Shown: piece after piece, positions 10,776-26,435 of the stretch
How the letters are laid out: the number at the start of each line of letters is the position of its first letter
Position numbering within the stretch: the stretch's first letter is position 1
IMG/VR virus record: IMGVR_UViG_3300042884_000097
Span: 1-31,600 of that record
Direction: 5' to 3' (one strand)
DNA: 31,600 nt
Origin: a virus
Program-made: the position numbers and the translations under genes
Notes under the pieces: generated by a model
What the model was told of the DNA's origin: nothing
Seen by the model: only the letters and a program-made list of their open reading frames with translations
Databases searched by the model: none

Positions 10776-10983
10776 CAAAGGGGATTGGATTGAATGCGAA
10801 GTACCCGATTGCGGAAAGCAAGGGATTGATATCCATCATTTATTGCCTAGGTCACGCGGAGGCAAAGACAACATTGAAAACCTTATGGGGTTATGTCGCG
10901 ATTGTCACCACGAAGTACACTTTGGAACAAAATTGAAAAACGAATATCTTATCACAGTACACCACATAAAACTAAACAAATGA
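10732..10983 (+). CDS. HNH nuclease (packaging-associated type)
   Basis: An 83-aa protein. The core is CEVPDCGKQGIDIHHLLPRS, then RGGKDNIENLMGLC, then RDCHHEVHFG. This is the classical short HNH fold with two Cys pairs holding zinc and catalytic His. Small HNH proteins of this kind are common close to terminase genes and are needed for DNA packaging in several phages such as HK97. Here the terminase genes begin 1.4 kb downstream. A role in processing concatemers is inferred. Unlike the other HNH genes in the window it has no promoter of its own and is locked into the operon by overlaps. Confidence 0.85.
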   Translation: MKPWTKIYLDHFGYDKGDWIECEVPDCGKQGIDIHHLLPRSRGGKDNIENLMGLCRDCHHEVHFGTKLKNEYLITVHHIKLNK

Positions 10984-12170
10984 ATATCGAATGGGTTAAA
11001 ACAAAAGACATCATCCCAAACACGGAAAACCCCCGCATAATTAAGGATGATAAATTCAAGAAGTTGGTACAATCAATCAAGGACTTTCCCGAAATGTTAG
11101 AGATTCGCCCAATTGTGGTCAACAACGAAATGATGATCCTTGGCGGAAACATGCGGTTAAAAGCCATCCAGGAGATAGGATTAAAGGAAGTTCCAATCAT
11201 CAAAGCGGAAAACCTAACCGAGCAACAACAACGGGAATTTTTGATAAAGGACAATGTTGGATTTGGTGAGTGGGATTGGGATGCGTTGGCAAACGATTGG
11301 GACCCCGCAGAATTGAACGAATGGGGTTTGGATGTACCCAATATGGATTTGACTGAATTGGAAGCGGAGGAAGATGATTTTGATGTTGATGCGGATGGCA
11401 TTGAAACGGATATTGTGTTGGGTGATTTATTTGAGATTGGTGAACACCGATTGTTGTGTGGGGATTCAACTGATAGCGATGCGGTTGCAAAATTAATGAA
11501 CGGACAAAAAGCGGATATGGTTTTTACCTCACCTCCTTATAACGGAGATACTCATTTAGATAGTAAAAAAGGTGGAGGCCGATTGTACAGTGATAAAGAT
11601 ATGGACAACAAAACAAGTAAGGATTATATTGTATTTCTGCAATCAACTTTGGATAATATTATTTTATATACAAATGGATTTATTTTTTGGAACATTAATT
11701 ATAACGCAAAATCAAGGAATGAATATTTAAAACATTTATTTCCATATTTAGATTTGTTATGGGAAACGATAATATGGGAAAAAACGGGAATGCCAATAGC
11801 CGACGGGTTGACGAGAAATTGTGAATTTATATTTGTTTTAAAAAATGGAGAAGAAAAGCATATAGGGAAGCATTTTGAAACAAATCATAATTTATGGAAA
11901 GTTAGTAATTTGAATAGTCAAGATAAAGCAAATAACCATAGGGCATGCTTCCCCGTTGAACTGCCTAATAAAGCAATAAATTTAGTTGCTAATGCCAATA
12001 TTGTATTAGAGCCATTCACGGGAAGTGGCACTACGATGGTTGCATCACACCAACTTAAACGCAAATGTTATGGAATGGAACTTGACCCAAAGTATTGCCA
12101 AGTTATTATTGACAGAATGAAAAAGTTAGATCCCACAATTAAAATTAAAAGAAACGGAGTTGAATTATGA
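10980..12170 (+). CDS. ParB-like domain fused to DNA methyltransferase (beta-class order)
   Basis: The protein has 396 aa from ATG 10980 (ATGA overlap), preferred over an upstream start that reads into the HNH gene. The N-terminal ParB/sulfiredoxin-like domain (1-100) has IIPNTENPRI and MILGGNMRLKAIQEIG. An acidic linker follows at about 120-145. The methyltransferase domain has motif IV TSPPYN near 183 and motif I EPFTGSGTT near 344, then DPKYCQVIIDRM. This order marks the beta class of N6-adenine or N4-cytosine enzymes. It probably protects phage DNA from host restriction. The target-recognition stretch (11540-11930) is strikingly AT-rich, suggesting module exchange. Confidence 0.9.
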   Translation: MNIEWVKTKDIIPNTENPRIIKDDKFKKLVQSIKDFPEMLEIRPIVVNNEMMILGGNMRLKAIQEIGLKEVPIIKAENLTEQQQREFLIKDNVGFGEWDWDALANDWDPAELNEWGLDVPNMDLTELEAEEDDFDVDADGIETDIVLGDLFEIGEHRLLCGDSTDSDAVAKLMNGQKADMVFTSPPYNGDTHLDSKKGGGRLYSDKDMDNKTSKDYIVFLQSTLDNIILYTNGFIFWNINYNAKSRNEYLKHLFPYLDLLWETIIWEKTGMPIADGLTRNCEFIFVLKNGEEKHIGKHFETNHNLWKVSNLNSQDKANNHRACFPVELPNKAINLVANANIVLEPFTGSGTTMVASHQLKRKCYGMELDPKYCQVIIDRMKKLDPTIKIKRNGVEL

Positions 12171-12360: not shown

Positions 12361-12684
12361 ATGCCAAACCCAGAAAACATAATCCCACCAAAGCCAGGTG
12401 AGGTAAGGAATCCCAACGGGAAACCCAAGGGGACAAAGAACCGAAGCACCATCGCCCGTAAATGGTTGGAGGTAATGCAAGACACAAAGAACCCCATCAC
12501 GGGAGAATTGGAGAAACTAAGCCAGGAAGATTTAATCACACTTGCAATGATACACAAGGCAAGGAAAGGTGATGTGGGTGCGTACAAACAATTGATGGAT
12601 TCGGGATTCGGTATGCCCACCCAACAAATTGATGTTACCACCGAGAAACCAATCTTCAACGGCATTGATTTGGATGTGAAGTAA
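12361..12684 (+). CDS. terS: Terminase small subunit (putative)
   Basis: A 107-aa protein. The N-terminal segment EVRNPNGKPKGTKNRSTIAR is the hallmark of the DUF5681/small-terminase group found before terL. Helices follow (RKWLEVMQDTKN, LSQEDLITLAMIHKARKGDVGAYKQLMDSG). It ends one base into terL (ATG 12684). It should recognise the packaging site and pass DNA to the large subunit. The weak box AAGATTTG just upstream is not a convincing promoter. Confidence 0.75.
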   Translation: MPNPENIIPPKPGEVRNPNGKPKGTKNRSTIARKWLEVMQDTKNPITGELEKLSQEDLITLAMIHKARKGDVGAYKQLMDSGFGMPTQQIDVTTEKPIFNGIDLDVK

Positions 12685-13841
12685 TGTTGCAAACCACGAC
12701 CGCCCAGAGTAAAATTGCCAACCTGCGGAAGCGGGTTAGAATCGTGCGTGGTGGCACATCCTCATCAAAAACTTTTAGCATCATTCCGATGCTTATCACC
12801 TACGCGGTGCAGAACGCAAAGTGTGAAATTAGTGTGGTATCGGAAACCATCCCGCACCTTCGAAGGGGTGCAATCCGTGACTTCCTTAAAATTATGGACA
12901 TGGTGGGAATGTTTGATCCGTTAAAATGGAACAAATCATCATTGACCTACACATTCAGCAATGACAGTTACATTGAATTTTTTAGTGCAGACCAACCACA
13001 AAAATTAAGGGGTGCAAGGCGTGATGTTTTATTTGTAAACGAGTGCAACAACATTGATTGGGAATCATACTACCAAATGGCGATTCGTACCCGTAAATTC
13101 ATTTATTTGGATTACAACCCCGTGGCGGAATTTTGGGTGGATAGTGAATTGGTAAACGACCCCGATGCGGAAATGATTGTACTTACCTACAAGGACAACG
13201 AAGCGTTGGACAAATCCATTGTAACGGAAATTGAAAAGGCACGGGATAGGGCAACCACATCCAATTATTGGGCGAATTGGTGGCGGGTGTATGGACTTGG
13301 TGAGATTGGGAACTTACAAGGTGTTATATTCAGCAATTGGCAAACCATTGACACCATCCCAGAGGATGCAAGGTTGCTTGGCATTGGTGTGGATTTTGGG
13401 TATACAAACGACCCCACGGCAATCGTAGCCGTTTATGAGTACAATGGTCAAAGAATAATAGATGAAGTGGCATACCGCACGGGAATGCTTAATTCAGACA
13501 TTGCAAAGGCATTACCCAGTCATGTACCTGTTTACGCGGATAGTGCCGAACCAAAGTCAATTGATGAAATAAAAAGATACGGCATAAGAATTAAGGGAGT
13601 AACCAAGGGCAAGGATTCCATTAACTACGGAATACAGATTATGCAATCACAATCGTACCTTATCACATCCACATCCACTAATTTAATCAAGGAGTTGCGG
13701 AATTATTGTTGGGATAGTGATGCCCAGGGGCGAAGCATGAACAACCCCATTGGCACATGTCACGGGCTTGACGCGTGGAGATACATGGAAATGATGTCAC
13801 TTGGCATAAAAGCCAACTATGGAAATTATGATATCCGATAA
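12684..13841 (+). CDS. terL: Terminase large subunit
   Basis: A 385-aa protein with both terminase domains. The ATPase domain has Walker A GGTSSSKT at residues 23-30, the motif KLRGARRDVLFVNECNN with Walker B acid near 113-119, and YLDYNPVAEFWV. The nuclease domain starts at GIGVDFGYTNDPTAIV near 233 and ends with HGLDAWRY. It is shorter than many TerL (400-600 aa) but all key motifs are present. It cuts concatemers and pumps DNA into proheads through the portal, which in this phage lies 12.6 kb downstream. An HNH gene with its own promoter is inserted right after it. Confidence 0.93.
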   Translation: MLQTTTAQSKIANLRKRVRIVRGGTSSSKTFSIIPMLITYAVQNAKCEISVVSETIPHLRRGAIRDFLKIMDMVGMFDPLKWNKSSLTYTFSNDSYIEFFSADQPQKLRGARRDVLFVNECNNIDWESYYQMAIRTRKFIYLDYNPVAEFWVDSELVNDPDAEMIVLTYKDNEALDKSIVTEIEKARDRATTSNYWANWWRVYGLGEIGNLQGVIFSNWQTIDTIPEDARLLGIGVDFGYTNDPTAIVAVYEYNGQRIIDEVAYRTGMLNSDIAKALPSHVPVYADSAEPKSIDEIKRYGIRIKGVTKGKDSINYGIQIMQSQSYLITSTSTNLIKELRNYCWDSDAQGRSMNNPIGTCHGLDAWRYMEMMSLGIKANYGNYDIR

Positions 13842-13880
13842 TATCGAATAATATACATATAGATTTTATCAGTTATTTTG

Positions 13881-13888
13881 TATATTTG
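13881..13888 (+). promoter_or_regulatory. Bacteroidota -7 element of the second mobile HNH gene
   Basis: A perfect TATATTTG ends four bases before ATG 13893, the same spacing as at 804-811. The AT-rich gap 13842-13880 lacks a clear TTTG box at -33. Confidence 0.6.
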
Positions 13889-13892
13889 TGGA

Positions 13893-14486
13893 ATGATAAC
13901 CACAAAAAGCAAAAGGGAAGTACCCATTCAAATCTTCAATGGTCGGACATATTACCAATATGAAGGCCGTTATTTTACAAGTCATAATAAAAAAATGCAC
14001 AGAGATGTTTGGTCGTTTTACAATGGGGAAATTCCAAAGGGCCATCACATACACCACATTGATGGTGATGTAACGAACAACGATATTTCAAACCTTCAGT
14101 TAATGGAAGCGTCCGCACATTTGCGAATGGAAGGAATTAAAAGACACAAGGAAAATCCCGAATGGTCAAAGCAGTTTCACGCCAAAGGAATTGAAATGGC
14201 AAAAGAATGGCACAAATCACCAGAAGGTCGGGAATGGCACAAACAACATGGCGTTGAAGCGTATGCAAAAAGAACCCCCGTTTCAATGGTATGTCAAAGA
14301 TGCCATAAAGAATATGAAACAACCAAGATGGCAAATAGCAAATTTTGTTCAAACAATTGCAAATGTGCATTCCGCAAAGCGAGTGGCATTGATGATGTAA
14401 AAAGAAATTGTGTTGTGTGTCAAACTCAATTCACCTGCAATAAATACCACCCACAAACCAAGTGCAAACGAGGTTGTAAAAAATAA
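13893..14486 (+). CDS. HNH homing-type endonuclease with C-terminal zinc fingers
   Basis: The protein has 197 aa from ATG 13893; an upstream TTG at 13878 lies across the promoter box. The HNH core is HNKKMHRDVWSFYNGEIPKG followed by HHIHHIDGDVTNNDISNLQL, the HNH_3 pattern with AP2-like context. The C-terminal half has CQRCHKEY...CSNNCK and CVVCQTQF...CKRGC, two likely zinc fingers for DNA binding. It lies between terL and a DnaA-like gene, with its own promoter, as expected for a free-standing homing endonuclease. Its target is presumably an intron-less or allelic site nearby. Confidence 0.85.
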   Translation: MITTKSKREVPIQIFNGRTYYQYEGRYFTSHNKKMHRDVWSFYNGEIPKGHHIHHIDGDVTNNDISNLQLMEASAHLRMEGIKRHKENPEWSKQFHAKGIEMAKEWHKSPEGREWHKQHGVEAYAKRTPVSMVCQRCHKEYETTKMANSKFCSNNCKCAFRKASGIDDVKRNCVVCQTQFTCNKYHPQTKCKRGCKK

Positions 14487-14490
14487 CGAT

Positions 14491-14934
14491 ATGACAAGCC
14501 ATTACCAGCAATTACACAACCAACGACAAGAAATTAAACGCCTTCGCTTATTGTTAGTTCAGATACAAGGCGAAGCCCTAACCAAAATCCAAATGTTAAA
14601 GCGTGAAATAATAAACCCACGGGTTGATTTTAACGATGCACCCAACCATTGGAAGGAGGTTTTACGGGCGGTTTGCACAGTAACCGAATTAACACCAGAT
14701 GAGATACTTTGCCCATCGCGGAAACGGGCATCGTTATACGCCCGTCACATGTTCAACTTTATTTGCAGAAAAAGGTTAGGGATGCCGTGGGCGGAAATTG
14801 GTCGGATTATCCATCGCGACCATTCAACGGCCATCAATTCGGTAAACGAGTTTAGTAACATTTTGTACACCGATAAGGAGGTGCAAAGGCAATACGCCAA
14901 GGTGTGTGTGTTGCTCAATGAAGCGTTGGAATAA
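14491..14934 (+). CDS. DnaA domain IV-like DNA-binding protein
   Basis: A 147-aa protein from ATG 14491 (GATATGACAA context). The N-terminal 45 residues form a charged coiled coil (YQQLHNQRQEIKRLRLLLVQ). The C-terminal part matches the DnaA DNA-binding domain: LTPDEILCPSRKRASLYARH, MFNFICRKRLGMPWAEIGRI, and IHRDHSTAINSV, which mirrors the DnaA signature RDHTTVLH. There is no AAA+ domain, so it cannot act as full DnaA. It could bind DnaA boxes to block or guide host initiation, or regulate transcription. The domain assignment is strong, the role open. Confidence 0.8.
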   Translation: MTSHYQQLHNQRQEIKRLRLLLVQIQGEALTKIQMLKREIINPRVDFNDAPNHWKEVLRAVCTVTELTPDEILCPSRKRASLYARHMFNFICRKRLGMPWAEIGRIIHRDHSTAINSVNEFSNILYTDKEVQRQYAKVCVLLNEALE

Positions 14935-14963
14935 CAAAGCGGGGTTTGGTCGTTTTATAATTA

Positions 14964-15710
14964 ATGATTGAATCAAAAACCATATTAGTACCCACATCGC
15001 TGAAGGATGTAAAGTTGCATCAAATGTTGGCGTATCAAGGTCTAAAAGAAGACATGGAAGATACCCAACGCCAATTGGAAGCGGTATCAATTTTTTGTGA
15101 GTTGACTATGACCGAGGTCATGGCCATGCCGTTTGATGTATTACAAAAGGCCGTTGAACGCATCACATTGATGTTGACAGAACAACCAACATTCACGCCT
15201 AGGTTCAAAATGGATGGCGTTGAATACGGGTTCATTCCAAACTTGGATGATATGTCGGTGGGTGAGTTTATAGACATTGAAACATACACAAAGGAAACCC
15301 ACGATTTGTGGAAGGTGATGAGTGTGTTGTATCGCCCCGTTACCCATAGCGGACAGAACGGAAGGTATGAGGTTGCACCCTATTCGGCAAACCTTGTCAC
15401 GGGTTTCAAGGATTTAGATTGCAACACCGCATTTGGGGCCATGGTTTTTTTTTGGAGTTTAGGAATCGACTTACTGAATTCTATCCAGAAGTATTTGGAG
15501 GGGCCGACGGGTCAGCAGATGAAAACCGCCTTACCAAAAAATGGGGATGGTTTGGAATGGTCTATCGACTCGCTTCAAGAAATTTCCTACGCTTGGAAGA
15601 TGTCTATACTAAGACCATTCACACCGCTTTGTATTGGACCGCTTACGAAAGCGACATTGCGGAAATGGAACAAAAAATTATTAAGCAAAGTTACAAGCGA
15701 TGATAAATAA
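14964..15710 (+). CDS. Tail-module protein, zero frame of a probable -1 frameshift gene
   Basis: The zero-frame product has 248 aa. The first 190 residues look like a Bacteroidota phage tail-module protein: helix TMTEVMAMPFDVLQKAV, FKMDGVEYGFIPNLDDMSVG, DLWKVMSVLYRPV, and the hydrophobic helix VFFWSLGIDLLNSIQKYLEG. After that the zero frame continues as a less ordered Trp/Pro/Lys-rich tail. A second frame offers a better C-terminus (see 15536-15703). The next gene's ATG overlaps the stop of the -1 frame, not the zero-frame stop. By analogy with lambda G/GT it may be a tail assembly chaperone upstream of the tape measure gene; this is inference. Confidence 0.75.
   Translation: MIESKTILVPTSLKDVKLHQMLAYQGLKEDMEDTQRQLEAVSIFCELTMTEVMAMPFDVLQKAVERITLMLTEQPTFTPRFKMDGVEYGFIPNLDDMSVGEFIDIETYTKETHDLWKVMSVLYRPVTHSGQNGRYEVAPYSANLVTGFKDLDCNTAFGAMVFFWSLGIDLLNSIQKYLEGPTGQQMKTALPKNGDGLEWSIDSLQEISYAWKMSILRPFTPLCIGPLTKATLRKWNKKLLSKVTSDDK
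15536..15620 (+). promoter_or_regulatory. Slippery heptamer and stem for -1 frameshifting
   Basis: A AAA AAT lies in the right register (codons AAA 15537-39, AAT 15540-42). After a 12-nt spacer, GAATGGTCT (15555-15563) is perfectly complementary to AGACCATTC (15612-15620). The interval holds a nested hairpin (15573-15579 with 15592-15599, one bulge). A second in-register slippery run, T TTT TTT, lies at 15446-15452. Confidence 0.6.
15536..15703 (+). CDS. Alternative C-terminus of the 14964 gene via -1 frameshift
   Basis: In the -1 frame, 53 codons from about 15542 to TGA 15701-15703 read KKWGWFGMVYRLASRNF, LEDVYTKTIHTALYWTAYES and DIAEMEQKIIKQSYKR, a well-formed helical domain. The frame is open further upstream but has no ATG, only TTG 15419. 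Slippage on A AAA AAT at 15536-15542 would join it to the conserved part and give about 246 aa. The downstream gene starts with ATGA on this frame's stop, so the shift product is the natural partner. A single-base assembly error in the T9 or A6 run would give the same picture. Confidence 0.65.
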   Translation, partial: KKWGWFGMVYRLASRNFLRLEDVYTKTIHTALYWTAYESDIAEMEQKIIKQSYKR

Positions 15711-16191
15711 CCACATAGGAACCGCATTTAAGGTATTCAAAGACATCGCCACGGACGAGGGATGGAATTATAGCCACGGAACATTAACGGAGTTGGACTT
15801 CAAAGCGTTCACGGTATTCCCGTTGATGCATTGCTCAATCCAAGCCGTGTCGCTTACCGACCAAATTGCATCCATCCAAATGAACATCATGATTGCGGAT
15901 CGTGTGAACTTTTTGAAAGGTGAGAATGAACAAAAAAACTTAATTACAGTTTACGACAAATACGGATACACCGAGAACCAAAACTATGCCCACATTTTAC
16001 AAGAAATGTATGTGCAAATGTCAAAGGGTTTGTGGAAGTTAGAGCAAGACAATTATTCACAAATACAATTCCAACGCCCCATTGTGTTTAATCCATTTGT
16101 TGAAACGATGGATTCAGTATTGGCGGGATATCAAATAAGTGTCACCATTGACTTAATAAACCCGTGGGTTACTGATGGCGATTGCGTTTAA
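15700..16191 (+). CDS. Tail or neck structural protein of unknown function
   Basis: A 163-aa mixed alpha/beta protein. It has IGTAFKVFKDIATDEGWNYS, then ASIQMNIMIADRVNFLKGEN and a C-terminal strand (AGYQISVTIDLINPW). Size and position between the tail-module gene and an HK97 gp10-like protein fit a tail terminator or completion protein. The domain type cannot be fixed by eye. It overlaps the previous gene by ATGA and the next by 17 bases, so it is part of the tail operon. Confidence 0.65.
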   Translation: MINNHIGTAFKVFKDIATDEGWNYSHGTLTELDFKAFTVFPLMHCSIQAVSLTDQIASIQMNIMIADRVNFLKGENEQKNLITVYDKYGYTENQNYAHILQEMYVQMSKGLWKLEQDNYSQIQFQRPIVFNPFVETMDSVLAGYQISVTIDLINPWVTDGDCV

Positions 16192-16726
16192 GAATAGCGT
16201 TGCCGTTGTTGCGGATTATTCCAAGAAGTGGGCAATTGCTTGTCGGAATATGTTGGAAATAAAACGCCCCCGAACTTCTATCCGTGCCAAATGGAAAAAG
16301 GTTGGCGGTGGATGGCAAGTTGTGTCAGCAACCAAAAAAACATTCCGTGGTAATTATGTGGCCAGTGGTCAATTGGTGGCATCCATCCAACCCGATCCGA
16401 ATGGATTGAATATGGGTATTAGCATGAACAAGACGGCCGACTATGTGCAAAGGGGTCGGAAGCCAGGCAAAGGGATTCCATTGGATTCCATGCGTAGTTG
16501 GGTTAAAATGAAACGCATCCAACCCCGCGACTTGTCAACGGGTAAATTCAAATCAAAGGCAAACGAGGAATCAATGCGGTTTATGATGAATAGAAAAATA
16601 AAGTATTTCGGTATTCAACCATTCCCATTTGTAAGCCAAGCAAGACAACAAATTTTACCATCGTTCAACAAGGCGTTGACCCAAGCGATGAAACAAGACA
16701 TTAAAAAAGGACTATTCAAAAGATGA
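16175..16726 (+). CDS. Tail completion / HK97 gp10-like protein (putative)
   Basis: A 183-aa basic protein. The segment VASGQLVASIQPDPNG, then KTADYVQRGRKPGKGIPLD and SMRSWVKMKRI resembles HK97 gp10-type head-tail joining proteins, where a strand-rich domain carries the Y..G..P.G motif. The C-terminal end is a helix with several Gln and Lys. It overlaps the gene before by 17 bases and the gene after by 4. A role in joining or closing the tail is inferred from this pattern and from position. Confidence 0.6.
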   Translation: MAIAFKNSVAVVADYSKKWAIACRNMLEIKRPRTSIRAKWKKVGGGWQVVSATKKTFRGNYVASGQLVASIQPDPNGLNMGISMNKTADYVQRGRKPGKGIPLDSMRSWVKMKRIQPRDLSTGKFKSKANEESMRFMMNRKIKYFGIQPFPFVSQARQQILPSFNKALTQAMKQDIKKGLFKR

Positions 16727-17835
16727 GTTTTACATTTACACAACAACCCGCATCCATAGTTGGGGCCAATTCCCCAATCATTTACCAAGCGTTTGAATCC
16801 ACCAATTATGCAAATGCGGGATTCCGTTATGAGTTCCAAGTTTATGTGTGGAGTGGCACGACATCCATCCCCGCAACACCGATTGTAACCATTAACAGAT
16901 TACCCGACCAATATGGAGGTGGAAGGGCGTGGATTGATGTTCACAAAATTGTAACCCAGTACATCACCACCGAGTTTTTGGTGAATGGCACATACAAACC
17001 AAACATCGGAAGCGGTGCAAAACGCGTAGCGGTGAAGTGTCAAGGCATTTGGACGGCGGGGTCAACCGCAGTTATTACTTCCAACTTATCGTTGGCCACA
17101 AAGGGTTATTCGTATACGGCGGAGGGATTCAATGTTGGTGTATCCAAATCTGTATTCACGGACAAAACGGCGTTGTATTTAACACCATTTACACCAACCG
17201 CTTATTTGTGGTATGATGCAACGGTGATTACATCAATCGTGGTGGGTTCGACAACAGTTATTCCAAACACGGTGACAACATCCGACCAAGCCATCCAAGG
17301 TATTGAAGTAAAACAATTATTTACCATCGCAGGTTTATTCGGCACCAATGCCAACATTACATTTGTGAAGGCGGGTGATGATGTGGTTATGCCCGTTGTT
17401 TTTGATTGCCAAAATAAGTATGGACAACAAGATGTGTTATTCCTCAATCGTTATGGGGTTTATGATTCGTACCTTTTTAACGGGGTATCACGCAGAACTT
17501 ACAATGTAGAATCCGAAAAATATAGCCAACCGATATTCAAACAAGCGGATTTGGCCCAATCGTGGAGTTACGGCGTACAGATTGCCACACCATTTTTGCA
17601 GAATAGCACGGAAGTAATGACAGTAAACACCGATTGGATACCCGAGGCGGATGTACCAATTGTTGAACAGATATTTTATTCCACCAATGTACTAATCATG
17701 ACGGGAACGGAAGTGTTATCAACACGGGTTATTGACACCGCATTTGAGTTCAAGAAACGCACCAACGAAAAATTGATCCAATACACCATCCAATTGGAAT
17801 ACAACCAACCTAAAATAAACAAGATTGTACGATGA
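16723..17835 (+). CDS. Tail structural protein, beta-rich
   Basis: A 370-aa protein that is mostly beta strands (Thr, Val, Ser and Tyr-rich), without signal peptide or membrane segment. Typical parts are FRYEFQVYVWSGTTSIPATP, GRAWIDVHKIVTQYI and, at the end, FEFKKRTNEKLIQYTIQLEY. Proteins of this type lie between connector genes and the large baseplate-like protein in Bacteroidota phages (recollection). A role as a distal tail protein or tail-tip component is possible. It overlaps the next gene by 4 bases. Confidence 0.65.
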   Translation: MSFTFTQQPASIVGANSPIIYQAFESTNYANAGFRYEFQVYVWSGTTSIPATPIVTINRLPDQYGGGRAWIDVHKIVTQYITTEFLVNGTYKPNIGSGAKRVAVKCQGIWTAGSTAVITSNLSLATKGYSYTAEGFNVGVSKSVFTDKTALYLTPFTPTAYLWYDATVITSIVVGSTTVIPNTVTTSDQAIQGIEVKQLFTIAGLFGTNANITFVKAGDDVVMPVVFDCQNKYGQQDVLFLNRYGVYDSYLFNGVSRRTYNVESEKYSQPIFKQADLAQSWSYGVQIATPFLQNSTEVMTVNTDWIPEADVPIVEQIFYSTNVLIMTGTEVLSTRVIDTAFEFKKRTNEKLIQYTIQLEYNQPKINKIVR

Positions 17836-20477
17836 ACATTCGGTTTAGTTTGGAAATTGAGGGGATACCCGTGGATTTATTTAATGACGAAAGTGTTGAA
17901 TTAAACCGCCAATTAAAAGACCTACAAGATTTATCCACAGTTTGGACAGATTACACCCAGGCGTTTCAGATACCCGCATCGGATACTAACAACCAAATCT
18001 TTTCGGATTGGTTTGATGAGAATGTGGTATTGGGTGCGTGGAATCCAAACATCGGAAAGGATGCTACATTATTGATTCACTCTTTGCCAGTGTACGCGGG
18101 TCGGATTGAGTTCGTTGGATGCAAGTTCAAAGACGGGATTCCGCAATTGTACAATTTGGTATTTTACGGAACGACCAAAAAGATATTGGACAAATGGGGT
18201 GAAACATTATTGAATCAAGTTGATTGGACGGCATACAACCACACGGCAAACTATGCCAACATTTTATTGTCGTGGGATAACGCATTATTGAGTGGTGACA
18301 TATTATGGCCCATTGCAGATTACAACCAAGGGTGGAGGTATTCCACCATGAAAGGGGTTAATGGTAACATCAAAGATTCAAGGGGTGTTGAGATTGATGA
18401 TTTACGCCCCGCAATTAAGTTAAAGGCCATGTTGACAACGGTATTTGCGGAAGCGGGGTTTACATTGAGTGGTTCGTTTTTATCAAAGGCCGAAATGGAC
18501 AAAGCGTTCATCCTTCCGATGCAAACGGCGGGGCCATTATACGACCCAGAATATACGCAAATTGGAACTTTTAACGCAAGTGTAGGGGCATTCACTTACA
18601 CCCAAACCACATTTGGAAGTTTGGCGTATACGAAAATTATATTCCCAACGGTGATTGCAAACCCATCGGGTAATTATAACGCAACCACGGGAGTTTACAC
18701 ACCAAACAGATTCGGTAATTACTCATTCCAAGTTGGTGTTGATGTTGTGATTACGGGTGCGGGTAGTATCAACTTCGTGTGGATGGTAAACGGAAGGGTG
18801 AAAAAATCCCAATCGTTTAATGCAACAACGGGCGGTGCATTTCCCGTGCGTTTCGATGCGGTGTTATCACCACAAGACGAAGTGACATTTGGTTATCGCA
18901 CCTATTCAGTCGTTACAAGCCCAGGCCTTATTTATATGTCTTGTTCAAATGCCCCACAAGGTATTAATGGAACAACCGTATCAATGGCGGATGCCATGCC
19001 ACAAATGACAATTAGGGATTTTGTGAATGGCGTGTTACAAACTTTTAATTGCATATTATTCCCAACGAGTGCAACCACCTTTGAAATACATAATTTGCAA
19101 GATTGGTTCAATACGGGAACGACAAAGAATTGGTCACCATTCATCGACGTAAAGGATATTGAACACGACAAGTTGCCAATCCCAAGCATCGTTTCAATGA
19201 CACACAAGGAATCGGAATGTTTGGCAAATGAATACTATCGAAACATTAACAGACGGGAATACGGGTCAATATCATTTGCACCCGAAATTGATTACCCCAC
19301 AGATACTTTTGAGTTAGAAACCCCGTTTAATGTAATTTGCCCATCTGTTTTATACGAGGTAAATGCCAATGGTCAAAAGATAAGGGATACAGAATTGACC
19401 ATTCCCCGATTTATGGATAAGGATGATAAACCAGTTCAACAAGATTTGACCTTGTTTTATTACGGCGGTAAATTTGCCGTTACGGATCAATATTATTTTA
19501 ACGGAATTCAACAATCATTTTTCCCGTTAATGACATCGTATTCCGCTTATCCCACAGTTCAATCAAGTTATTCAATGGCGTTTGGTTTGGAGTATTCCAT
19601 CAAAGGGGATGCACCCGTTAATTCAATTTATAATTTGTATTGGAAGGAATACCTATCCCGTATGTATTCAACGCAATCAAGGTTGGTTAAAATGACGGGA
19701 ATCGTACCCGTGGGTGAATGGTTGAACTTTGAATTGAATGACACCATCGCCATAAGTGGTAATTACTACAAAGTGCAATCGGTTAAGTACGATATGTTGA
19801 CCGAGATTGCAAACCTTGAATTAATCACTTACCCAAATGTGGATATTATGACGTTCACAACCACGGGGCAAAAACCCGTGTTCACCGATGTGGTGGTCAA
19901 TGTCAATGGCAAATCATATTTGAACGATTACGCAGTTGCAAAGGGTATCATGAACGCGTATCGTTTTGGAACACAAGATTATTTGGACACGAACCAGGAC
20001 ACGACATACAATCAAAATACTGTGAGTGATTTATCACAACAAGTCGAAAGTTTACAAGCCATTGTGCAATTCAACCAAATCACGATGTATAGGACCACGC
20101 CAACTTCCGTTGCAACCGATTCGACATTGTGGGCACCAGTGCCACAAGAATTACAAGTATCAATCGGCTATACACAGAACATAACATCAAATTTGGCATT
20201 GGCAAAATATGTATGCACCGATGGCGGTCAATACAAGTTCACGGGAATGTGTGCAGTTGGCCAAACGGGAAACAAGCAACTTGAATTTGAAATCCAAGTC
20301 AACGGGGTTCAAACAACGGCGTATGCGTTGACGGATTCAAACCATCACAGTATTAATTTTGATACCATTTTGGATTTATCCACAACCGATGAAGTGACAT
20401 TTGTTTGGAAGCCACACACGGGAGGTTCACACACGATAATTATTGAAAAATCAAACTTTTTAATACTTAAAAAATGA
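17832..20477 (+). CDS. Large tail-tip/baseplate-like structural protein
   Basis: An 881-aa protein. The N-terminal domain (MNIRFSLEIEGIPVDLFNDE, QAFQIPASDTNNQIFSDWF) is typical of large Bacteroidota phage tail proteins in which a polymer-interacting domain is followed by an IP.S..N motif (recollection). The rest is beta-rich with Tyr and Asn repeats. The last 120 residues form a C1q/TNF-like jelly-roll pattern (YKFTGMCAVGQTGNKQLEFE, DEVTFVWKP), often a trimeric receptor-binding module. It probably sits at the tail tip. It is the longest gene of the window and lies before the tape measure gene. Confidence 0.7.
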   Translation: MNIRFSLEIEGIPVDLFNDESVELNRQLKDLQDLSTVWTDYTQAFQIPASDTNNQIFSDWFDENVVLGAWNPNIGKDATLLIHSLPVYAGRIEFVGCKFKDGIPQLYNLVFYGTTKKILDKWGETLLNQVDWTAYNHTANYANILLSWDNALLSGDILWPIADYNQGWRYSTMKGVNGNIKDSRGVEIDDLRPAIKLKAMLTTVFAEAGFTLSGSFLSKAEMDKAFILPMQTAGPLYDPEYTQIGTFNASVGAFTYTQTTFGSLAYTKIIFPTVIANPSGNYNATTGVYTPNRFGNYSFQVGVDVVITGAGSINFVWMVNGRVKKSQSFNATTGGAFPVRFDAVLSPQDEVTFGYRTYSVVTSPGLIYMSCSNAPQGINGTTVSMADAMPQMTIRDFVNGVLQTFNCILFPTSATTFEIHNLQDWFNTGTTKNWSPFIDVKDIEHDKLPIPSIVSMTHKESECLANEYYRNINRREYGSISFAPEIDYPTDTFELETPFNVICPSVLYEVNANGQKIRDTELTIPRFMDKDDKPVQQDLTLFYYGGKFAVTDQYYFNGIQQSFFPLMTSYSAYPTVQSSYSMAFGLEYSIKGDAPVNSIYNLYWKEYLSRMYSTQSRLVKMTGIVPVGEWLNFELNDTIAISGNYYKVQSVKYDMLTEIANLELITYPNVDIMTFTTTGQKPVFTDVVVNVNGKSYLNDYAVAKGIMNAYRFGTQDYLDTNQDTTYNQNTVSDLSQQVESLQAIVQFNQITMYRTTPTSVATDSTLWAPVPQELQVSIGYTQNITSNLALAKYVCTDGGQYKFTGMCAVGQTGNKQLEFEIQVNGVQTTAYALTDSNHHSINFDTILDLSTTDEVTFVWKPHTGGSHTIIIEKSNFLILKK

Positions 20478-20629
20478 TATTACTCATTATAAAATTAGCA
20501 CAAGCCCAAGAATGGTATGGAGTATCGGAGACGGTGGAAATCGCCAAAGGGAAAAACCAATACAACCAAACATGGGGTCAAACAACCAAAAGCATTAAAA
20601 GGAGAATCAAATCATGGCGGAAGAAATAA
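20474..20629 (+). CDS. Small hydrophobic-to-basic ORF before the tape measure gene
   Basis: A 51-aa ORF from ATG 20474 (overlapping the previous stop) to TAA 20627-20629, overlapping the tape measure start by 16 bases. It begins with a hydrophobic stretch (MILLIIKLAQAQEWYG) and ends strongly basic (KRRIKSWRKK). It covers what would otherwise be a 136-base gap. The tape measure's Shine-Dalgarno (AAGGAGA) lies inside it. Function unknown; coding status is likely but not sure. Confidence 0.5.
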   Translation: MILLIIKLAQAQEWYGVSETVEIAKGKNQYNQTWGQTTKSIKRRIKSWRKK

Positions 20630-22506
20630 ATTATAAAGTCAATGTTGACACATCGGGGGTCAAAAAATCGGAAAGTGCGTTTGCAAGTTTTCAAAGCAAA
20701 GCATCCAAAGCCTTTGATGGCATTGGGGGTAAAATTCAAAATGTAGGGAATAAGTTTGGTGAATTGCCTGGTTCGGTTGGTGTTGCATCGTCGGCATTAA
20801 TGGGATTAGGCCGTGCCATGATGGTATTGGTGGCAAATCCAATTGGTGCAGTTATCGCCGCATTGGTGGGCATATTCGCAGCGTTAAAAGGGGCATTGAC
20901 AAAGAGTGAAGATGGTATGGATGCCCTTGCCCGTATTTCATCTGTATTTGGGGCAATCTTAAATCCAATCATCCAAGCGGTATCCAAATTCGCCGCGTTG
21001 CTTGTCAATGGTTTGGCAACGGGATTAGAAATGGTGGCGGGATTATTTGGTAGCGCAGCGGCAGAAGGCGGAAAATTGGCGGATGTTCAAGACCAGTTGG
21101 AGGACCAAGAACTTGCATTGGCTCAACTTCGTGCAAAACAAAACAAGGAATTGGCACAAGCCCGTGAATTGTTGTCGGATTCCAACGCATCGTTGGCGGA
21201 TAGACGAAAGGCATTAGAGCAAGTACGGAAATCTGAAACTGATTTAGCATCCAAAGAATTACAATTTGCCAAAAACAGATTGGCTGCAGCGCAGGAGGAC
21301 CAACGATTAAATGGTCAAACCGAGGAATCCAAAAAGGCAATCAGTGATGCCGTTGTTGCAACCCAAAATGCAGAAACGGAATTGGCAGCCAAACGGAGGT
21401 TGTTTAATCGTGAAGCCAAGAAATTAGATAGGGAAGAAGAAGAACGCAAAAAGGAAATGGCAAAAGCCGAGGAAGAACGGGCAAAGGAATTGGCAGCAAA
21501 ACAAAAAGAATATGCAGAAGCCAGACGGAACGCATCCGACAAGATTCGGGAAGCAGACCGCAAAAATATAATTGATTCTATTAAGGACGAGGAAGCCAAA
21601 GCACGGAAACAAGCGGAGTTTGATTTGGATAATGCCAAGCGTGAAATCAATCGTGGCCAATATACGGCAAAGGAAAAAGCAAGGTTGATTGAAGAAGCGG
21701 AAGAAGCCAACCAAATTAAATTAACCCAAATTACCACAGATGCGGAAAAGAAACGACTTGATGAAAAGAAAAAAGCGGATGATGAGTTAAAAGCGTTTAT
21801 GGAAAAGTCGGCCCAAGACGAAGCCAAATTTATTGACGAACAATATGCCAAAGAACAATTGCGCTTAACACAAACCATCACTAACGAAAAGGATTTACAA
21901 ACCGCGTTAACTAATTTGGAATTAGACCGACTTACTAACCAAATTCAAGCAAGAAAAGATGCGGGTCAACTTACCACAGATTTAGAATTATCATTGGCCA
22001 ACAAGCGTATCGACATTGCCAAAAACGAAGCCGAACAAAAAAAGGATTTAGCCAAAAAAGAGTTAGAAGCAAAGTTAGCCATATTCGATGCCACATCAAC
22101 CGCCTTATCATCCATCACACAATTGGTTGGAGAAAGCACCGCAATGGGCAAGTCGTTGGCAGTGGCCCAAGCCATTATTGATACATACACGGGTGCAACC
22201 AAGGCATTTGCGCAAGGTGGTGTATTGGGTTACATCGGTGCGGCGGGAGTAATTGCAGCGGGATTGGCAAATGTTCGGAAGATTGTATCGACCGAAATCC
22301 CAGGTCAAAGCGATTCGGGTTCAGCACCAAGCATGGGGCCAAGTGTTTCGATTATCGGTGGCACCGTTGATCCATCAGCACAAATGGCAGCAAGTTTGAA
22401 TAAGAGTTTAGGCAAACCCGCAAAGGCCTATGTGGTCGGTAACGATATGAGTTCACAACAAGCGTTGGATAGGCGTATACAAACAAATGCAACATTCCCA
22501 GGATAA
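20614..22506 (+). CDS. Tail tape measure protein
   Basis: A 630-aa protein with a typical layout. The N-terminal region is Gly/Ala/Val-rich with membrane-like helices (about 70-100, VLVANPIGAVIAALVGIFAA). A long coiled coil (about 150-480) is rich in Ala, Glu, Lys and Arg. A second hydrophobic segment follows near 540 (GYIGAAGVIAAGLANVRKI), then a polar tail. At about 0.15 nm per residue it would set a tail length of roughly 95 nm, a sign of a siphovirus (inference). It has one of the few Shine-Dalgarno-like sites in the window. Late tail genes precede it and head genes follow. Confidence 0.88.
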   Translation: MAEEINYKVNVDTSGVKKSESAFASFQSKASKAFDGIGGKIQNVGNKFGELPGSVGVASSALMGLGRAMMVLVANPIGAVIAALVGIFAALKGALTKSEDGMDALARISSVFGAILNPIIQAVSKFAALLVNGLATGLEMVAGLFGSAAAEGGKLADVQDQLEDQELALAQLRAKQNKELAQARELLSDSNASLADRRKALEQVRKSETDLASKELQFAKNRLAAAQEDQRLNGQTEESKKAISDAVVATQNAETELAAKRRLFNREAKKLDREEEERKKEMAKAEEERAKELAAKQKEYAEARRNASDKIREADRKNIIDSIKDEEAKARKQAEFDLDNAKREINRGQYTAKEKARLIEEAEEANQIKLTQITTDAEKKRLDEKKKADDELKAFMEKSAQDEAKFIDEQYAKEQLRLTQTITNEKDLQTALTNLELDRLTNQIQARKDAGQLTTDLELSLANKRIDIAKNEAEQKKDLAKKELEAKLAIFDATSTALSSITQLVGESTAMGKSLAVAQAIIDTYTGATKAFAQGGVLGYIGAAGVIAAGLANVRKIVSTEIPGQSDSGSAPSMGPSVSIIGGTVDPSAQMAASLNKSLGKPAKAYVVGNDMSSQQALDRRIQTNATFPG

Positions 22507-22523
22507 TTAGTTTTATAGGTAAT

Positions 22524-22859
22524 ATGAAAACATCATTTGATAAATTTATGGCATCAAGTGCCGTTAACCCCGTGAAAATGGAATTGGCATTGTTAGACGA
22601 TGTTACAAAGGCCAAAAATGGCTTTGAGCAAAGTGCAAAACAAGCAAGATTGATGGTTGCGGCTGCTGATAATAACACTAATGAAACATTGATGTTTTTA
22701 AAGAATGCGTTAAAAATTAGTGATGAGTATTTGCAAAAAGCCAAGGACTTGGGTTCACCCGAATTGATTAAACAAGGTGAAACAATTAAAGCAGGATTCG
22801 CGGGTTCTCTTTCTAAATGGCAAAAGATTTCTAACGACATCAAAAAGATTCAATTTTAA
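22524..22859 (+). CDS. Hypothetical helical protein
   Basis: A 111-aa protein, almost all helical (VKMELALLDDVTKAKNGFEQ, FLKNALKISDEYLQKAKDLG). It has no known motif. It lies between the tape measure and the prohead protease. Its last base pairs overlap ATG 22859. A role in head assembly or as a chaperone is possible from position only. Start at ATG 22524 is the only good one. Confidence 0.6.
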   Translation: MKTSFDKFMASSAVNPVKMELALLDDVTKAKNGFEQSAKQARLMVAAADNNTNETLMFLKNALKISDEYLQKAKDLGSPELIKQGETIKAGFAGSLSKWQKISNDIKKIQF

Positions 22860-23467
22860 TGAGAATCGTTGAATTGATATTGGACGACCAACAATTGGCA
22901 AGTGGCATTGATGCGATAAGCATCGTGGAAGCCCCCGCCATTGAATCCAATTTTATTGCATTGAAATCCCATGAAATAAAGTTTGCCCAGGTGGATGCCG
23001 AAAAACGCATCTTGATGGGTCCCGTTCTTATCCCCGACAAACCCATTTACCGCAAACAAGTGATGAATGGCGAGATGCAAGAATTTTATGTATACTTTTC
23101 AAAGAACACCGTGTCCCGTGCATCGCAAATGTTTTTGATGAAGGGGAACCAAGGCAAAGCCACATTGGAACACGACATGGCGTTGCAAGGTATTTGCATG
23201 GTGGAATCTTGGATTAAAGAGGACATGGAAAAAGACAAGTCGGCCATCTATGGTATGAACGATCCGATTGGAACTTGGATGGGGTCATTAAAGGTTACCA
23301 ACGATGAGATTTGGAACGACTATGTTAAAACGGGTCGTGTTAAAGGATTCAGCATCGAAGGTTATTTTGCGGATAGGTCAATGCCATTGTCAAAGGTTGA
23401 AACCGATGATGAGAAATTAAATAAAATACTTAACATACTAAAAGAATATGAAACTTCAAGGAATTAA
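22859..23467 (+). CDS. Prohead protease, XkdF-like (Peptidase_S78_2 type)
   Basis: A 202-aa protein. Its pattern is that of the XkdF serine-protease group: EAPAIESNFIALKS, then KRILMGPVLIPDKPIYRKQV, EHDMALQG with a likely catalytic His near residue 100, and VKGFSIEGYF with a likely catalytic Ser near 164. These act on scaffold and capsid proteins during prohead maturation. It lies upstream of a scaffold-like gene and the major capsid gene, as expected. Cleavage sites are not visible. The family assignment is from the motif pattern. Confidence 0.85.
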   Translation: MRIVELILDDQQLASGIDAISIVEAPAIESNFIALKSHEIKFAQVDAEKRILMGPVLIPDKPIYRKQVMNGEMQEFYVYFSKNTVSRASQMFLMKGNQGKATLEHDMALQGICMVESWIKEDMEKDKSAIYGMNDPIGTWMGSLKVTNDEIWNDYVKTGRVKGFSIEGYFADRSMPLSKVETDDEKLNKILNILKEYETSRN

Positions 23468-23756
23468 AGTTGAATTGGGAACGATTCAAGATTTGGATAA
23501 AAGAGCATCAAACTTACTTGATAGCATCGTATCAATTAAAACCAAATGGAATGATGCCAATATGATTGCCAAAAATTCAGCGGGAAAATTATTGACAGAA
23601 CACAACACGATTCAAAACGAAATTATCAAAGTTGAAAAACAAATGAATGACTTAGGGATGGTAAGTACAAAAGAATTGGATGATGTAGCGTTTCAAATTA
23701 AAAGTGCGTTAACATTAATCAAATTTGTACAAGACAATGCCAACGCATCCAAATAA
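23448..23756 (+). CDS. Coiled-coil protein of the head module
   Basis: A 102-aa protein, helical and rich in Lys, Asn and Ile (DLDKRASNLLDSIVSIKTKW, NEIIKVEKQMNDLG). It overlaps the protease gene by 20 bases. The coiled coil and the position between protease and scaffold-like genes suggest an assembly helper, but the function is unknown. A similar helical protein lies upstream of the protease (22524); direct homology between the two is not evident. Confidence 0.6.
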   Translation: MKLQGIKVELGTIQDLDKRASNLLDSIVSIKTKWNDANMIAKNSAGKLLTEHNTIQNEIIKVEKQMNDLGMVSTKELDDVAFQIKSALTLIKFVQDNANASK

Positions 23757-23804
23757 GCGGAATTTCAAAAATCAAACAATATAAACAATTAAAGTATTTT
23801 AGAT

Positions 23805-24434
23805 ATGAACGCAACCGAAACATTAAACCGCGTATTGGCAACTTTGGGATTAAAGCCCGAGGAGGCGATTGTGGTTGATTTGGCACAAGTTAAGACCGAG
23901 GATGGTCAAGCCACATTTGAATCAGACAATTTCGCCGTGGGTGAAGCGGTATTTATCGTAACACCAGATGGTAACATCCCAACACCAGAAGGTGAATTTG
24001 CATTGGAAAACGGAAATGTAATGACCGTGGATGCAAATGGTACAATCGTTGAAATCGCAACCAAGGAGGAAGAAGCCCCCGAGGAAGAAATCATCGAAGC
24101 CGAGGATATGCCGATGCAAGACGAAATCGCCGAGGCAATGCCAATGGCAAAGAAAGTAGTAAAAAGCAAAACCGAAATGGAAGAATCTTATTTCAGCAAA
24201 CAGATGAGCGAATTGGAAGCCAAGTTTGAAGCCCGTTTGTCAGCATTGGAAGGCGAGAAAATCGCATTGAGTGCCGAGAACAAGGAATTGACCGAGCGAT
24301 TGGCTAACGAACCAGCACCACACACATTGCACAACCCAGAATCAAATGGACAAGCAAAAAAATTGCAATTCCACATGGGCAATAAGAGAGCCGAATCAGT
24401 AAAAGACCGAGTATTTAATCAACTATTCAACTAA
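23805..24434 (+). CDS. Scaffold-like protein
   Basis: A 209-aa acidic protein. The N-terminal 80 residues form a beta domain with repeats like TPEGEFALENGNVMTVDANG. An acidic segment (EEEAPEEEIIEAEDMP) follows, then a long coiled coil (about 120-165) and a basic C-terminal end (NKRAESVKDRVFNQLFN). Acidic middle, coiled coil and a basic tail that can bind capsid protein are typical of scaffolds, and the position between protease and capsid genes fits. It would be removed by the protease. TATTTTAG at 23795-23802 is one mismatch from a -7 box. Confidence 0.72.
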   Translation: MNATETLNRVLATLGLKPEEAIVVDLAQVKTEDGQATFESDNFAVGEAVFIVTPDGNIPTPEGEFALENGNVMTVDANGTIVEIATKEEEAPEEEIIEAEDMPMQDEIAEAMPMAKKVVKSKTEMEESYFSKQMSELEAKFEARLSALEGEKIALSAENKELTERLANEPAPHTLHNPESNGQAKKLQFHMGNKRAESVKDRVFNQLFN

Positions 24435-24442
24435 CCACGAAA

Positions 24443-25363
24443 ATGAACAATAAATTAAACAAAATCAATTTGAGTGGCCCAACAGTTTCCCCCAATACCT
24501 ACGCGGGTCTTTGGAGTGGCAAGTATGTGGCCGCTGCCCTTTTGTCGGGTGAAACCTTGTCAAAAGAACTTATCACATTGCACCCCAATGTTGCATTCAA
24601 AGAAGTAATCCGTAATTGGCAGAACTCTGTATCAATTGATTCTGCAACTTGTGATTACACAGACAACTCATCAGTAACTTTGGGTGAATATGTGTTGACC
24701 ACAGTTGAAAAGCAAGTAAACATGACTTTGTGTAAAAACAACTTGCGTACAACATGGGAAGCAGCCCAAGCGGGATTCAGTGCATTTGAAAAATTACCAG
24801 CAACATTTGAGGAATTTTTGTTAGCCCAAGTGGCAGCAGAAGTTGCCCAAGGTGTTGAATTAGGTATTTGGAAAACCAATACATTCTACACGGGTGGTAT
24901 GGTTCAATACTTGATTGACAACTCGGCCATCATTAGTGCGGGTTCGGGTGCAACAAGTGGGTCAAATGTTGTTGCTCGTTTGCAATCAATGTTGGATGCT
25001 TCACCAGCAGCATTGTATGGTAAGGAAGGATATCAATTCTATGTTGGTCCTTTGACTATGAAGGCGTATCAAGCGGCGTTATCTGCGGGTAACTACAATT
25101 TCCAATTCTATGTTGGTGAGAAGCCAATGAACTTCCAAGGTATTCCCGTTACCATGTGTCCAGGTCTTAACGATTCGGATTGTGTGTTGGGTCTTAAAAG
25201 TGATTTGCACTTTGGAACAGGATTGTTGAGTGATTACAACGAGGTGAAGGTAATTGACATGAGTGACATTGATGGTTCACAGAATGTTCGTACAATCATG
25301 CGTTTTACGGGTGGTATCATTGCTACTAACCCAACCCAACAAGTTGTATTAAACATAACCTAA
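24443..25363 (+). CDS. Major capsid protein
   Basis: A 306-aa protein. The N-terminal part has YAGLWSGKYVAAALLSGETL and TLHPNVAFKEVIRNWQNSVS. The middle has TTVEKQVNMTLCKNNLRTTW and FEEFLLAQVAAEVAQGVELG. The C-terminal part has YQFYVGPLTMKAYQAALSAG and DLHFGTGLLSDYNEVKVIDM. This matches a capsid family of Bacteroidota siphoviruses (recollection), with the helix-and-strand mix of the HK97 fold. It follows the scaffold-like gene and has a strong terminator 23 bases after the stop, as is usual for a very highly expressed gene. Confidence 0.88.
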   Translation: MNNKLNKINLSGPTVSPNTYAGLWSGKYVAAALLSGETLSKELITLHPNVAFKEVIRNWQNSVSIDSATCDYTDNSSVTLGEYVLTTVEKQVNMTLCKNNLRTTWEAAQAGFSAFEKLPATFEEFLLAQVAAEVAQGVELGIWKTNTFYTGGMVQYLIDNSAIISAGSGATSGSNVVARLQSMLDASPAALYGKEGYQFYVGPLTMKAYQAALSAGNYNFQFYVGEKPMNFQGIPVTMCPGLNDSDCVLGLKSDLHFGTGLLSDYNEVKVIDMSDIDGSQNVRTIMRFTGGIIATNPTQQVVLNIT

Positions 25364-25386
25364 TAGTATAGGATAGATATAAACTT

Positions 25387-25418
25387 GGGGTGGGCATAAA
25401 CACCCGCCCCTTTTTTTT
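25387..25418 (+). terminator. Strong rho-independent terminator after the capsid gene
   Basis: GGGGTGGG (25387-25394) pairs with CCCGCCCC (25403-25410), one G-U pair, with an 8-nt loop. Eight T's (25411-25418) follow. Confidence 0.88.
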
Positions 25419-25439
25419 AACCAAGATAATAGAAAAGAT

Positions 25440-26006
25440 ATGCCAAGTTGTGGAACATTATTAGGAAGATACGAGCCGTGTAAGCAATATGTCGGTGGAA
25501 TTAAAGTAGCATACTTTATTCCATTTGAATTTGCAAACCGCGTTACCAAGAACGGAACGGGTGTTGTAACATTGATTGACAATGGTGCAAATACAACACC
25601 AATTGCAGCACCATTTTGGGAATTAAAAGGTTTGTCAACCATGGAAACCACCATCACCGCATCACGCGATAATGGAACATCAATGTATGAAACCATTTTT
25701 ACATTGTCATTCAAGCCAAGTGGCCTTACCGCCGTTACGGGTGATGTTGACATGGATGCGATTCAAACATTGGTAAAAGGTAGATGGCAAATTATCGTTT
25801 GGGATAGAAACGACCAAATGTGGTTGTTGGGTGAAACTTTGGGTTGTGATGCCAATGGCGGATCAAGTTCATGGGGTGTACAGATGGGCGATGCCCGTTT
25901 GAATACCATCACTTTTTCAAGCCAAGAGAAATTACCCCCAGGAATTGTTGATGCCAATTCAGCGGCAAGTATCGCATTGGTTATTACACCAACAATGCCA
26001 GTTTAA
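25440..26006 (+). CDS. Probable major tail (tube) protein
   Basis: A 188-aa beta-rich protein from ATG 25440. It contains TTITASRDNGTSMYETIFTL, VKGRWQIIVWDRNDQMWLLG, and the segment GVQMGDARLNTITFSSQEKL. The pattern of a strand, an aromatic loop and MGD..... TFSSQEK is that of tail tube proteins of Bacteroidota siphoviruses (recollection). It is flanked by terminators on both sides, so it is probably expressed as a strong separate unit. It has a GATATG start context. Confidence 0.7.
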   Translation: MPSCGTLLGRYEPCKQYVGGIKVAYFIPFEFANRVTKNGTGVVTLIDNGANTTPIAAPFWELKGLSTMETTITASRDNGTSMYETIFTLSFKPSGLTAVTGDVDMDAIQTLVKGRWQIIVWDRNDQMWLLGETLGCDANGGSSSWGVQMGDARLNTITFSSQEKLPPGIVDANSAASIALVITPTMPV

Positions 26007-26031
26007 TTTTAATTATATTTCTATGTTTAAG

Positions 26032-26056
26032 CCCTCACCATTTGGTGGGGGTTTTT
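26032..26056 (+). terminator. Rho-independent terminator after the tail tube gene
   Basis: CCCTCACC (26032-26039) pairs with GGTGGGGG (26044-26051), one wobble pair, with loop ATTT. TTTTT (26052-26056) follows. Confidence 0.85.
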
Positions 26057-26093
26057 CATTTATAACAAAAAATGTATTTCGCGTTTTATAACT

Positions 26094-26435
26094 ATGCACA
26101 TCAATAACGCATCCACCAATATCAATTTCACATCCTTTGTGGAATTTACGGGTGTATCAACGATTGAGGTGTGGCACAAGCCCACAAAAACGATGGTGAC
26201 GGCCACAAGTACCCCAAGCAAGTTATATTCGTTCTACACGATGAATTTGCCATCATTAACCGCCATCAATGCGGTTGCACAAAACACCGATGAGATATTA
26301 ATTCGTGTATTCAATGCAAATAATTTGGTGTGGGAGTATTTAGGGTATTGGATTACTGGAACAACCAACATTAACAACACTTGGAAGGATTGGGACACCA
26401 CCACCCCCGTTTCACCTAATTGGATAACACTATGA
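26094..26435 (+). CDS. Structural protein of unknown function
   Basis: A 113-aa Thr/Asn-rich, beta-type protein (TNINFTSFVEFTGVSTIEVW, NTDEILIRVFNANNLVWEYL). It ends in a Trp/Thr region and overlaps the portal gene by ATGA. No known domain. It is the first gene after a terminator, but no convincing TAnnTTTG promoter is seen upstream (26057-26093). A minor virion protein is likely. Confidence 0.6.
   Translation: MHINNASTNINFTSFVEFTGVSTIEVWHKPTKTMVTATSTPSKLYSFYTMNLPSLTAINAVAQNTDEILIRVFNANNLVWEYLGYWITGTTNINNTWKDWDTTTPVSPNWITL

Follow-up and report, generated by a model that had tools for sequence, protein, structure and literature searches.

Comparative evidence for a conserved one-base frame switch at a run of nine T in a tail-assembly-chaperone-like gene of Bacteroidota viruses

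Comparison of homologues indicates that a gene in a 31.6-kb virus record (IMG/VR IMGVR_UViG_3300042884_000097, positions 1 to 31,600; this whole stretch is called the window below) switches reading frame by one base at a run of nine T (T9), a feature kept among its relatives, and that two different C-termini behind the run are under selection. The finding is real and broader than first reported in an earlier note on this DNA, and the gene is carried by a large group of Bacteroidota viruses, most of them uncultured. As a whole, we favour with moderate confidence a model in which the gene would encode a chaperone-like pair, G and GT, GT being made through slippage of RNA polymerase at T9. A slightly more guarded proposal is that in a large clade of Bacteroidota phages the ratio of the two chaperone isoforms could be set by polymerase slippage at an invariant T9 and not by ribosomal frameshifting, with a true double-coding segment behind the run and with complete, different C-terminal domains on both isoforms. 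The main features of the locus are:

14964..15710, + strand: zero-frame ORF of the G-like protein, 248 aa, the putative unslipped product (ORF call; phrog_32199, E 3e-15)
15445..15453, + strand: T9 run, the proposed shift site, with the in-register T_TTT_TTT at 15446-15452 inside it (281/281 complete homologues; pattern scans)
15452..15703, + strand: -1 frame T-like domain, 83 codons plus TGA (conserved in 43 representatives; phrog_38404)
15700..16191, + strand: next gene, 163 aa, whose ATG at 15700 overlaps the -1 frame stop as ATGA
20614..22506, + strand: tape-measure protein gene of the same tail module (phrog_3336, E 6e-19)
12684-13841: terminase
24443-25363: likely major capsid gene (our own inference)
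26420-28213: portal gene

The predicted GT consists of residues 1-163 of G followed by the -1 frame domain, which is open as far as the TGA at 15701-15703, and comes to 246 aa in total. Among the PHROG profiles, phrog_32199 covers residues 9-172 of the zero frame and phrog_38404 matches the KWGW region of the -1 frame, and these matches already hint at two proteins. The genes follow one another in the order terminase, G/GT gene, four more genes, tape-measure gene, head protease, likely major capsid and portal; the G/GT gene is therefore not adjacent to the tape-measure gene but lies about 5 kb from it.

Several observations on the surrounding genome can be added. The gene order across 12684-28213 is unusual, with the terminase followed by the tail genes and the tape measure, and only then by the protease, the likely capsid and the portal genes. 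Between the terminase gene and a DnaA-like gene lies an HNH-like ORF (13878-14486; HHIDGDVTNN motif, recognised by eye) that perhaps encodes a homing endonuclease, and in the DnaA-like gene itself (14410-14934) the C-terminal part resembles, also by eye, the DnaA DNA-binding domain, its sole profile match being phrog_16091, a family of unknown function. A DNA methyltransferase fused to a ParB-like nuclease domain is encoded at 10893-12170, and a large tail protein at 17832-20477 shows weak similarity to a C1q domain (E 3e-4, which does not reach the Pfam cut-off). The window's only A run of nine is found within the portal gene, at 27580-27588, and may be a second slippage site.

T9 is the window's sole run of nine or more T. 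A first search recovered 143 relatives from IMG/VR, and profile searches with the fused GT protein widened the set to very divergent phages and to three MAG loci; a first scan of genome contigs had yielded no relatives, and a second yielded these three loci. In the phage collection, homologues were found only in the Nonlabens phages P12024L/S. All 281 homologues from the protein searches that are complete at the site carry the T run (272 with T9, nine with T10, none shorter), and those bearing T9 range down to about 28% protein identity and include the isolated Nonlabens phages. The position of T9 is constant relative to both the G and the T domains, and the T_TTT_TTT heptamer is found in register in 230/230 site-complete homologues of the first set, as well as inside every one of the 281 T9/T10 runs. 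In the first-search relatives the zero frame is open to 247-248 aa in 71/71 full-length sequences (one ending at a contig end), and the -1 frame is conserved from T9 onward (FFLEFRNRL...). The Nonlabens phages have their T9 in the homologous position; 25 codons beyond it the zero frame meets a stop, and stop codons of the -1 frame lie just upstream, so that T would be entered from G at the run, within this ORF pair. Comparison of homologues shows the one-base -1 switch at T9 to be conserved, its direction included.

This gives strong support to the central claim of the earlier note, a -1 frame switch leading to two C-termini of almost equal length (248 and 246 aa). The positional facts that it listed, that is the ORF, A_AAA_AAT, the 9-bp complement, the 12-nt spacer, T_TTT_TTT and the ATGA overlap, are all present in the sequence. 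It had also named homologues read through in a single frame with a single-base difference as the outcome that would speak against a frame switch; none were seen when homologues were aligned, and the split was retained. An assembly indel or a broken gene might be suspected in a homopolymer, as such runs are error-prone and two relatives, L415 and L434, appear one T short of the family pattern, but the identical split frame recurs in 281/281 complete homologues, which derive from numerous separate assemblies as well as from two isolates, and selection acts on both frames, so that this explanation is barely credible.

The earlier note had placed the shift elsewhere, at a second heptamer with a downstream stem:

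15536..15542, + strand: A_AAA_AAT heptamer, rejected as shift site, lost in relatives
15555..15620, + strand: 9-bp stem (arms 15555-15563 and 15612-15620), 12-nt spacer after the heptamer, not conserved

Heptamer, register and stem are all found in the window, as a ribosomal frameshift at A_AAA_AAT aided by the stem would have it; however, neither element is conserved. The position of the heptamer reads G_AAA_AAT in 33/38 second-clade relatives and the heptamer is absent from many divergent lineages, whereas the -1 frame protein is conserved already from T9, well upstream of A6. The stem keeps 9/9 pairs in 21/34 close relatives, 8/9 in the other 13/34 and 7-8 in 38/38 second-clade sequences, pairs being lost without compensation, and its fold is unremarkable (z -1.7; 13/200 shuffles equally good). 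An Rfam search of the region gave no match. We therefore rejected A6 and its stem, a reading to which we now give almost no credence, and place the true site at T9, about 90 nt further upstream. The T_TTT_TTT at 15446-15452 had been mentioned in that note as a second heptamer in register: its presence holds, and it is its secondary rank that must be revised. With T9 as the site, about 85 codons differ between the two products, versus about 55 with A6.

The stretch behind the run can be divided in two:

15453..15623, + strand: double-coding stretch of about 57 codons, zero and -1 frames both constrained (similarity above null, stop avoidance, synonymous constraint)
15624..15710, + strand: distal zero-frame tail, open in the window's lineages and weakly constrained (z 3.5 and 2.4, within the control range)

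The relatives differ in where the zero frame ends. In the group of the window's type its end lies no more than 3 codons away from that of GT, or else 8 codons short of it, the stop being supplied by Asn codons of the next gene (15700..16191), in a second group it falls 28-32 codons short of the GT end, with the stop in a homologous position (...SLKEILQDLKISLN), and in the remaining lineages the zero/-1 overlaps are shorter. Over 80 codons past T9, 15 divergent representatives of the window's type have no stop in the zero frame and 109 overall in the third frame; when synonymous codons of the -1 frame were resampled, the chance of the observed zero-frame opening was about 0.006 per lineage, and as a control 0/3185 windows of 80 codons were open in the +1 frame of the G region. 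Synonymous constraint was strongest over the first 16 codons past the shift. Because synonymous-codon identity alone is ambiguous in the distal tail, being raised also after the zero-frame stop of the second group, we used a test of zero-frame similarity against stop-avoiding, synonymous-resampled versions, with the G region as a control (z -1.4 to 4.4) and the post-stop stretch of the second group as an internal control. Along the tail of the window's type the z values were, in order, 13.6, 2.8, 2.8, 6.8, 8.8, 3.5 and 2.4; in the second group they were 13.1, 8.8, 1.9 and 21.3, and 0.9 and 2.2 past its zero-frame stop. These tests treat representatives as independent despite their shared ancestry, and the exact probabilities are not to be taken literally.

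Dual coding over about 57 codons past the shift can therefore be regarded as firm on this comparative evidence. The last 27 or so codons in the window's lineage appear to be open more often than expected (per-lineage chance about 0.01-0.7) and are not clearly constrained. That GT alone is functional past T9, the open zero frame being a side effect of coding in the -1 frame or of composition, would agree with the zero-frame conservation of these last codons, which is within the control range. Against it stand the 15 x 80 codons free of zero-frame stops where the third frame has 109, the resampling probability, and z values that reach 13.6 and 21.3 and drop to 0.9 once the second group's zero frame has stopped, and we consider it very unlikely. 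The -1 frame had been described in the earlier note as looking more native than the zero frame, and this was half right: both frames are under selection.

How the slip is made is a separate question. T9 is a length-conserved A/T homopolymer of about nine or more, as looked for in transcriptional slippage, and T_TTT_TTT is a conserved in-register X_XXY_YYZ heptamer, as looked for in ribosomal frameshifting. Length-conserved 9A/9T runs have been proposed as a mark of functional transcriptional slippage, with a T-run insertion in mxiE as precedent (PMC1088944), and slippage insertions grow exponentially as runs lengthen (PMC5574713). In E. coli, U_UUU_UUU is a weak site for the ribosome and is surpassed by A_AAA_AAG (PMC5009743). 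In most of our lineages the run reads NTT TTT TTT TNN, where the heptamer and coding constraints already give nine T. Divergent lineages have GGT, GCT, AGT, GAT, AAT, ACT or TCT as the upstream codon, and there TTG or TTC follows downstream, so that the run again counts nine T but sits one base over with respect to the codons. When IMG/VR was scanned for this pattern, T9 in the displaced register was found at no fewer than 94 homologous sites in at least 42 clusters. The matching T8 scan had a single genuine site, L355, among the matches listed, a scan for T8 in the other register likewise one, L579, and a T7 scan no homologous site among the matches listed. Coverage of the T8 scan was about 0.8 of that of the T9 scan, as estimated from background matches and run frequencies (VT8V:VT9V about 5:1), and the T9-over-T8 contrast in the scans is real but approximate.

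L355 and L579 are T8 homologues with a normal frame relation and constitute exceptions to the nine-T rule. L415 and L434 also matched the T8 scan and were set aside as T8 sites, as the frame of their T domain is displaced by two from the upstream frame, which is what the loss of a single T would give; their runs of eight with displaced downstream frames may reflect assembly error or real length variation.

That run length is kept regardless of codon register favours transcriptional slippage, since a ribosomal shift needs only T7 in register, and we incline, with some reserve, towards RNA-polymerase slippage at T9 over ribosomal frameshifting. Of the 'ribosomal frameshift' of the earlier note, the frameshift stands and the attribution to the ribosome probably does not. 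The same two products could nonetheless arise by -1 ribosomal frameshifting on U_UUU_UUU at 15446-15452, in the manner of lambda gpG/gpGT. Ribosomal shifting is the rule for genes of this type, and a stimulatory structure is not obligatory for it in tailed phages (PMC5009743). The heptamer is in exact register throughout the first set and is kept in the two T8 homologues, and because every T9 includes it and these two T8 homologues exist, we still grant the ribosomal route a lesser but fair probability. Against it, T7 would suffice, yet runs below nine are almost absent among the matches listed, nine T are restored in another codon register, and there is no conserved stem at a suitable distance; the RNA folds after T9 differ among lineages and are near shuffle level, with no consistent or conserved downstream structure. 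Our literature search found no description of this site in Bacteroidota phages and no report of transcriptional slippage in tail-chaperone genes.

In the model with polymerase slippage, one gene would give two proteins resembling tail assembly chaperones, identical over residues 1-163. Translation of mRNA without a slip would yield G, whose post-shift tail includes a conserved NGDGLxxSxxSLxEI segment, and RNA polymerase would sometimes insert one extra U at T9, giving a U10 mRNA that would be read in the -1 frame to produce GT with its KWGW...AYxSD domain. On the pattern of lambda gpG/gpGT, G would be expected to cover the tape-measure protein, with GT bringing in the subunits of the tail tube. 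It is the polymerase origin of the slip, the product ratio and the chaperone role that we infer. A G/GT-like design in a tail module speaks for a pair of tail assembly chaperones, and we consider this role likely, although a position beside the tape-measure gene, as looked for in gpG/gpGT genes, is not seen here. Profile and structure searches gave little: phrog_166 'tail protein' matches few members, weakly (about E 1e-4), BFVD gave one weak chaperone match (E 0.65), PDB sequence and fold searches nothing significant, and Pfam and NCBIfam no meaningful match. In an AF2 model of the 248-aa G, residues 198-216 and 229-247 form helices, block pLDDT being about 62-84 in this part. Two single predicted proteins in BFVD, A0A516L611 and A0A6J7XA66, match both the G and the T models and are perhaps one-frame G-T fusions.

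The dnaX switch is made by RNA polymerase in Thermus and by the ribosome in E. coli, and the switch described here has probably moved likewise from the ribosome to RNA polymerase. As reported in the relevant part of the source, Thermus thermophilus dnaX and Shigella mxiE resemble the present case in that RNA polymerase slips at an A/T homopolymer, nine A in dnaX and a run of U in mxiE, to give a second product (PMC1088944). They differ in being bacterial genes and not phage tail genes, and that part of the source describes no long double-coding stretch for them (PMC1088944). In the Nonlabens phages P12024L/S, gp40/gp41 and gp38/gp39 are homologous to G and T and have T9 at the homologous place; their zero frame ends sooner than in the window. 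Their annotation lists two distinct hypothetical proteins and records no frameshift, and the G/GT gene has thus been misannotated, in the isolates examined, as two unrelated hypothetical proteins.

Membership among the gpG/gpGT tail assembly chaperones, in the sense of working alike, is probable. Lambda is the textbook case: without the shift its short chaperone is made, and a ribosomal shift gives the long one. The likeness to lambda (PMC5009743) lies in one gene of the tail module of a tailed phage, a common N-terminal part, a -1 switch near the end and a second C-terminal domain, and in the window, too, comparison of homologues points to two products of a conserved 3'-end frame switch. In lambda, the shift is ribosomal and GT is longer, whereas here the T9 is invariant and has no conserved stimulator, G and GT are about equal in length in the window's lineage, 55-85 codons are read in both frames, and the unshifted product, unlike that of lambda, is not truncated. 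The arrangement would represent a gpG/gpGT-like variant of the known frame-switched tail-chaperone genes, in which evolution appears to have kept two full-length alternatives over the same DNA, as opposed to the short and long pair of lambda.
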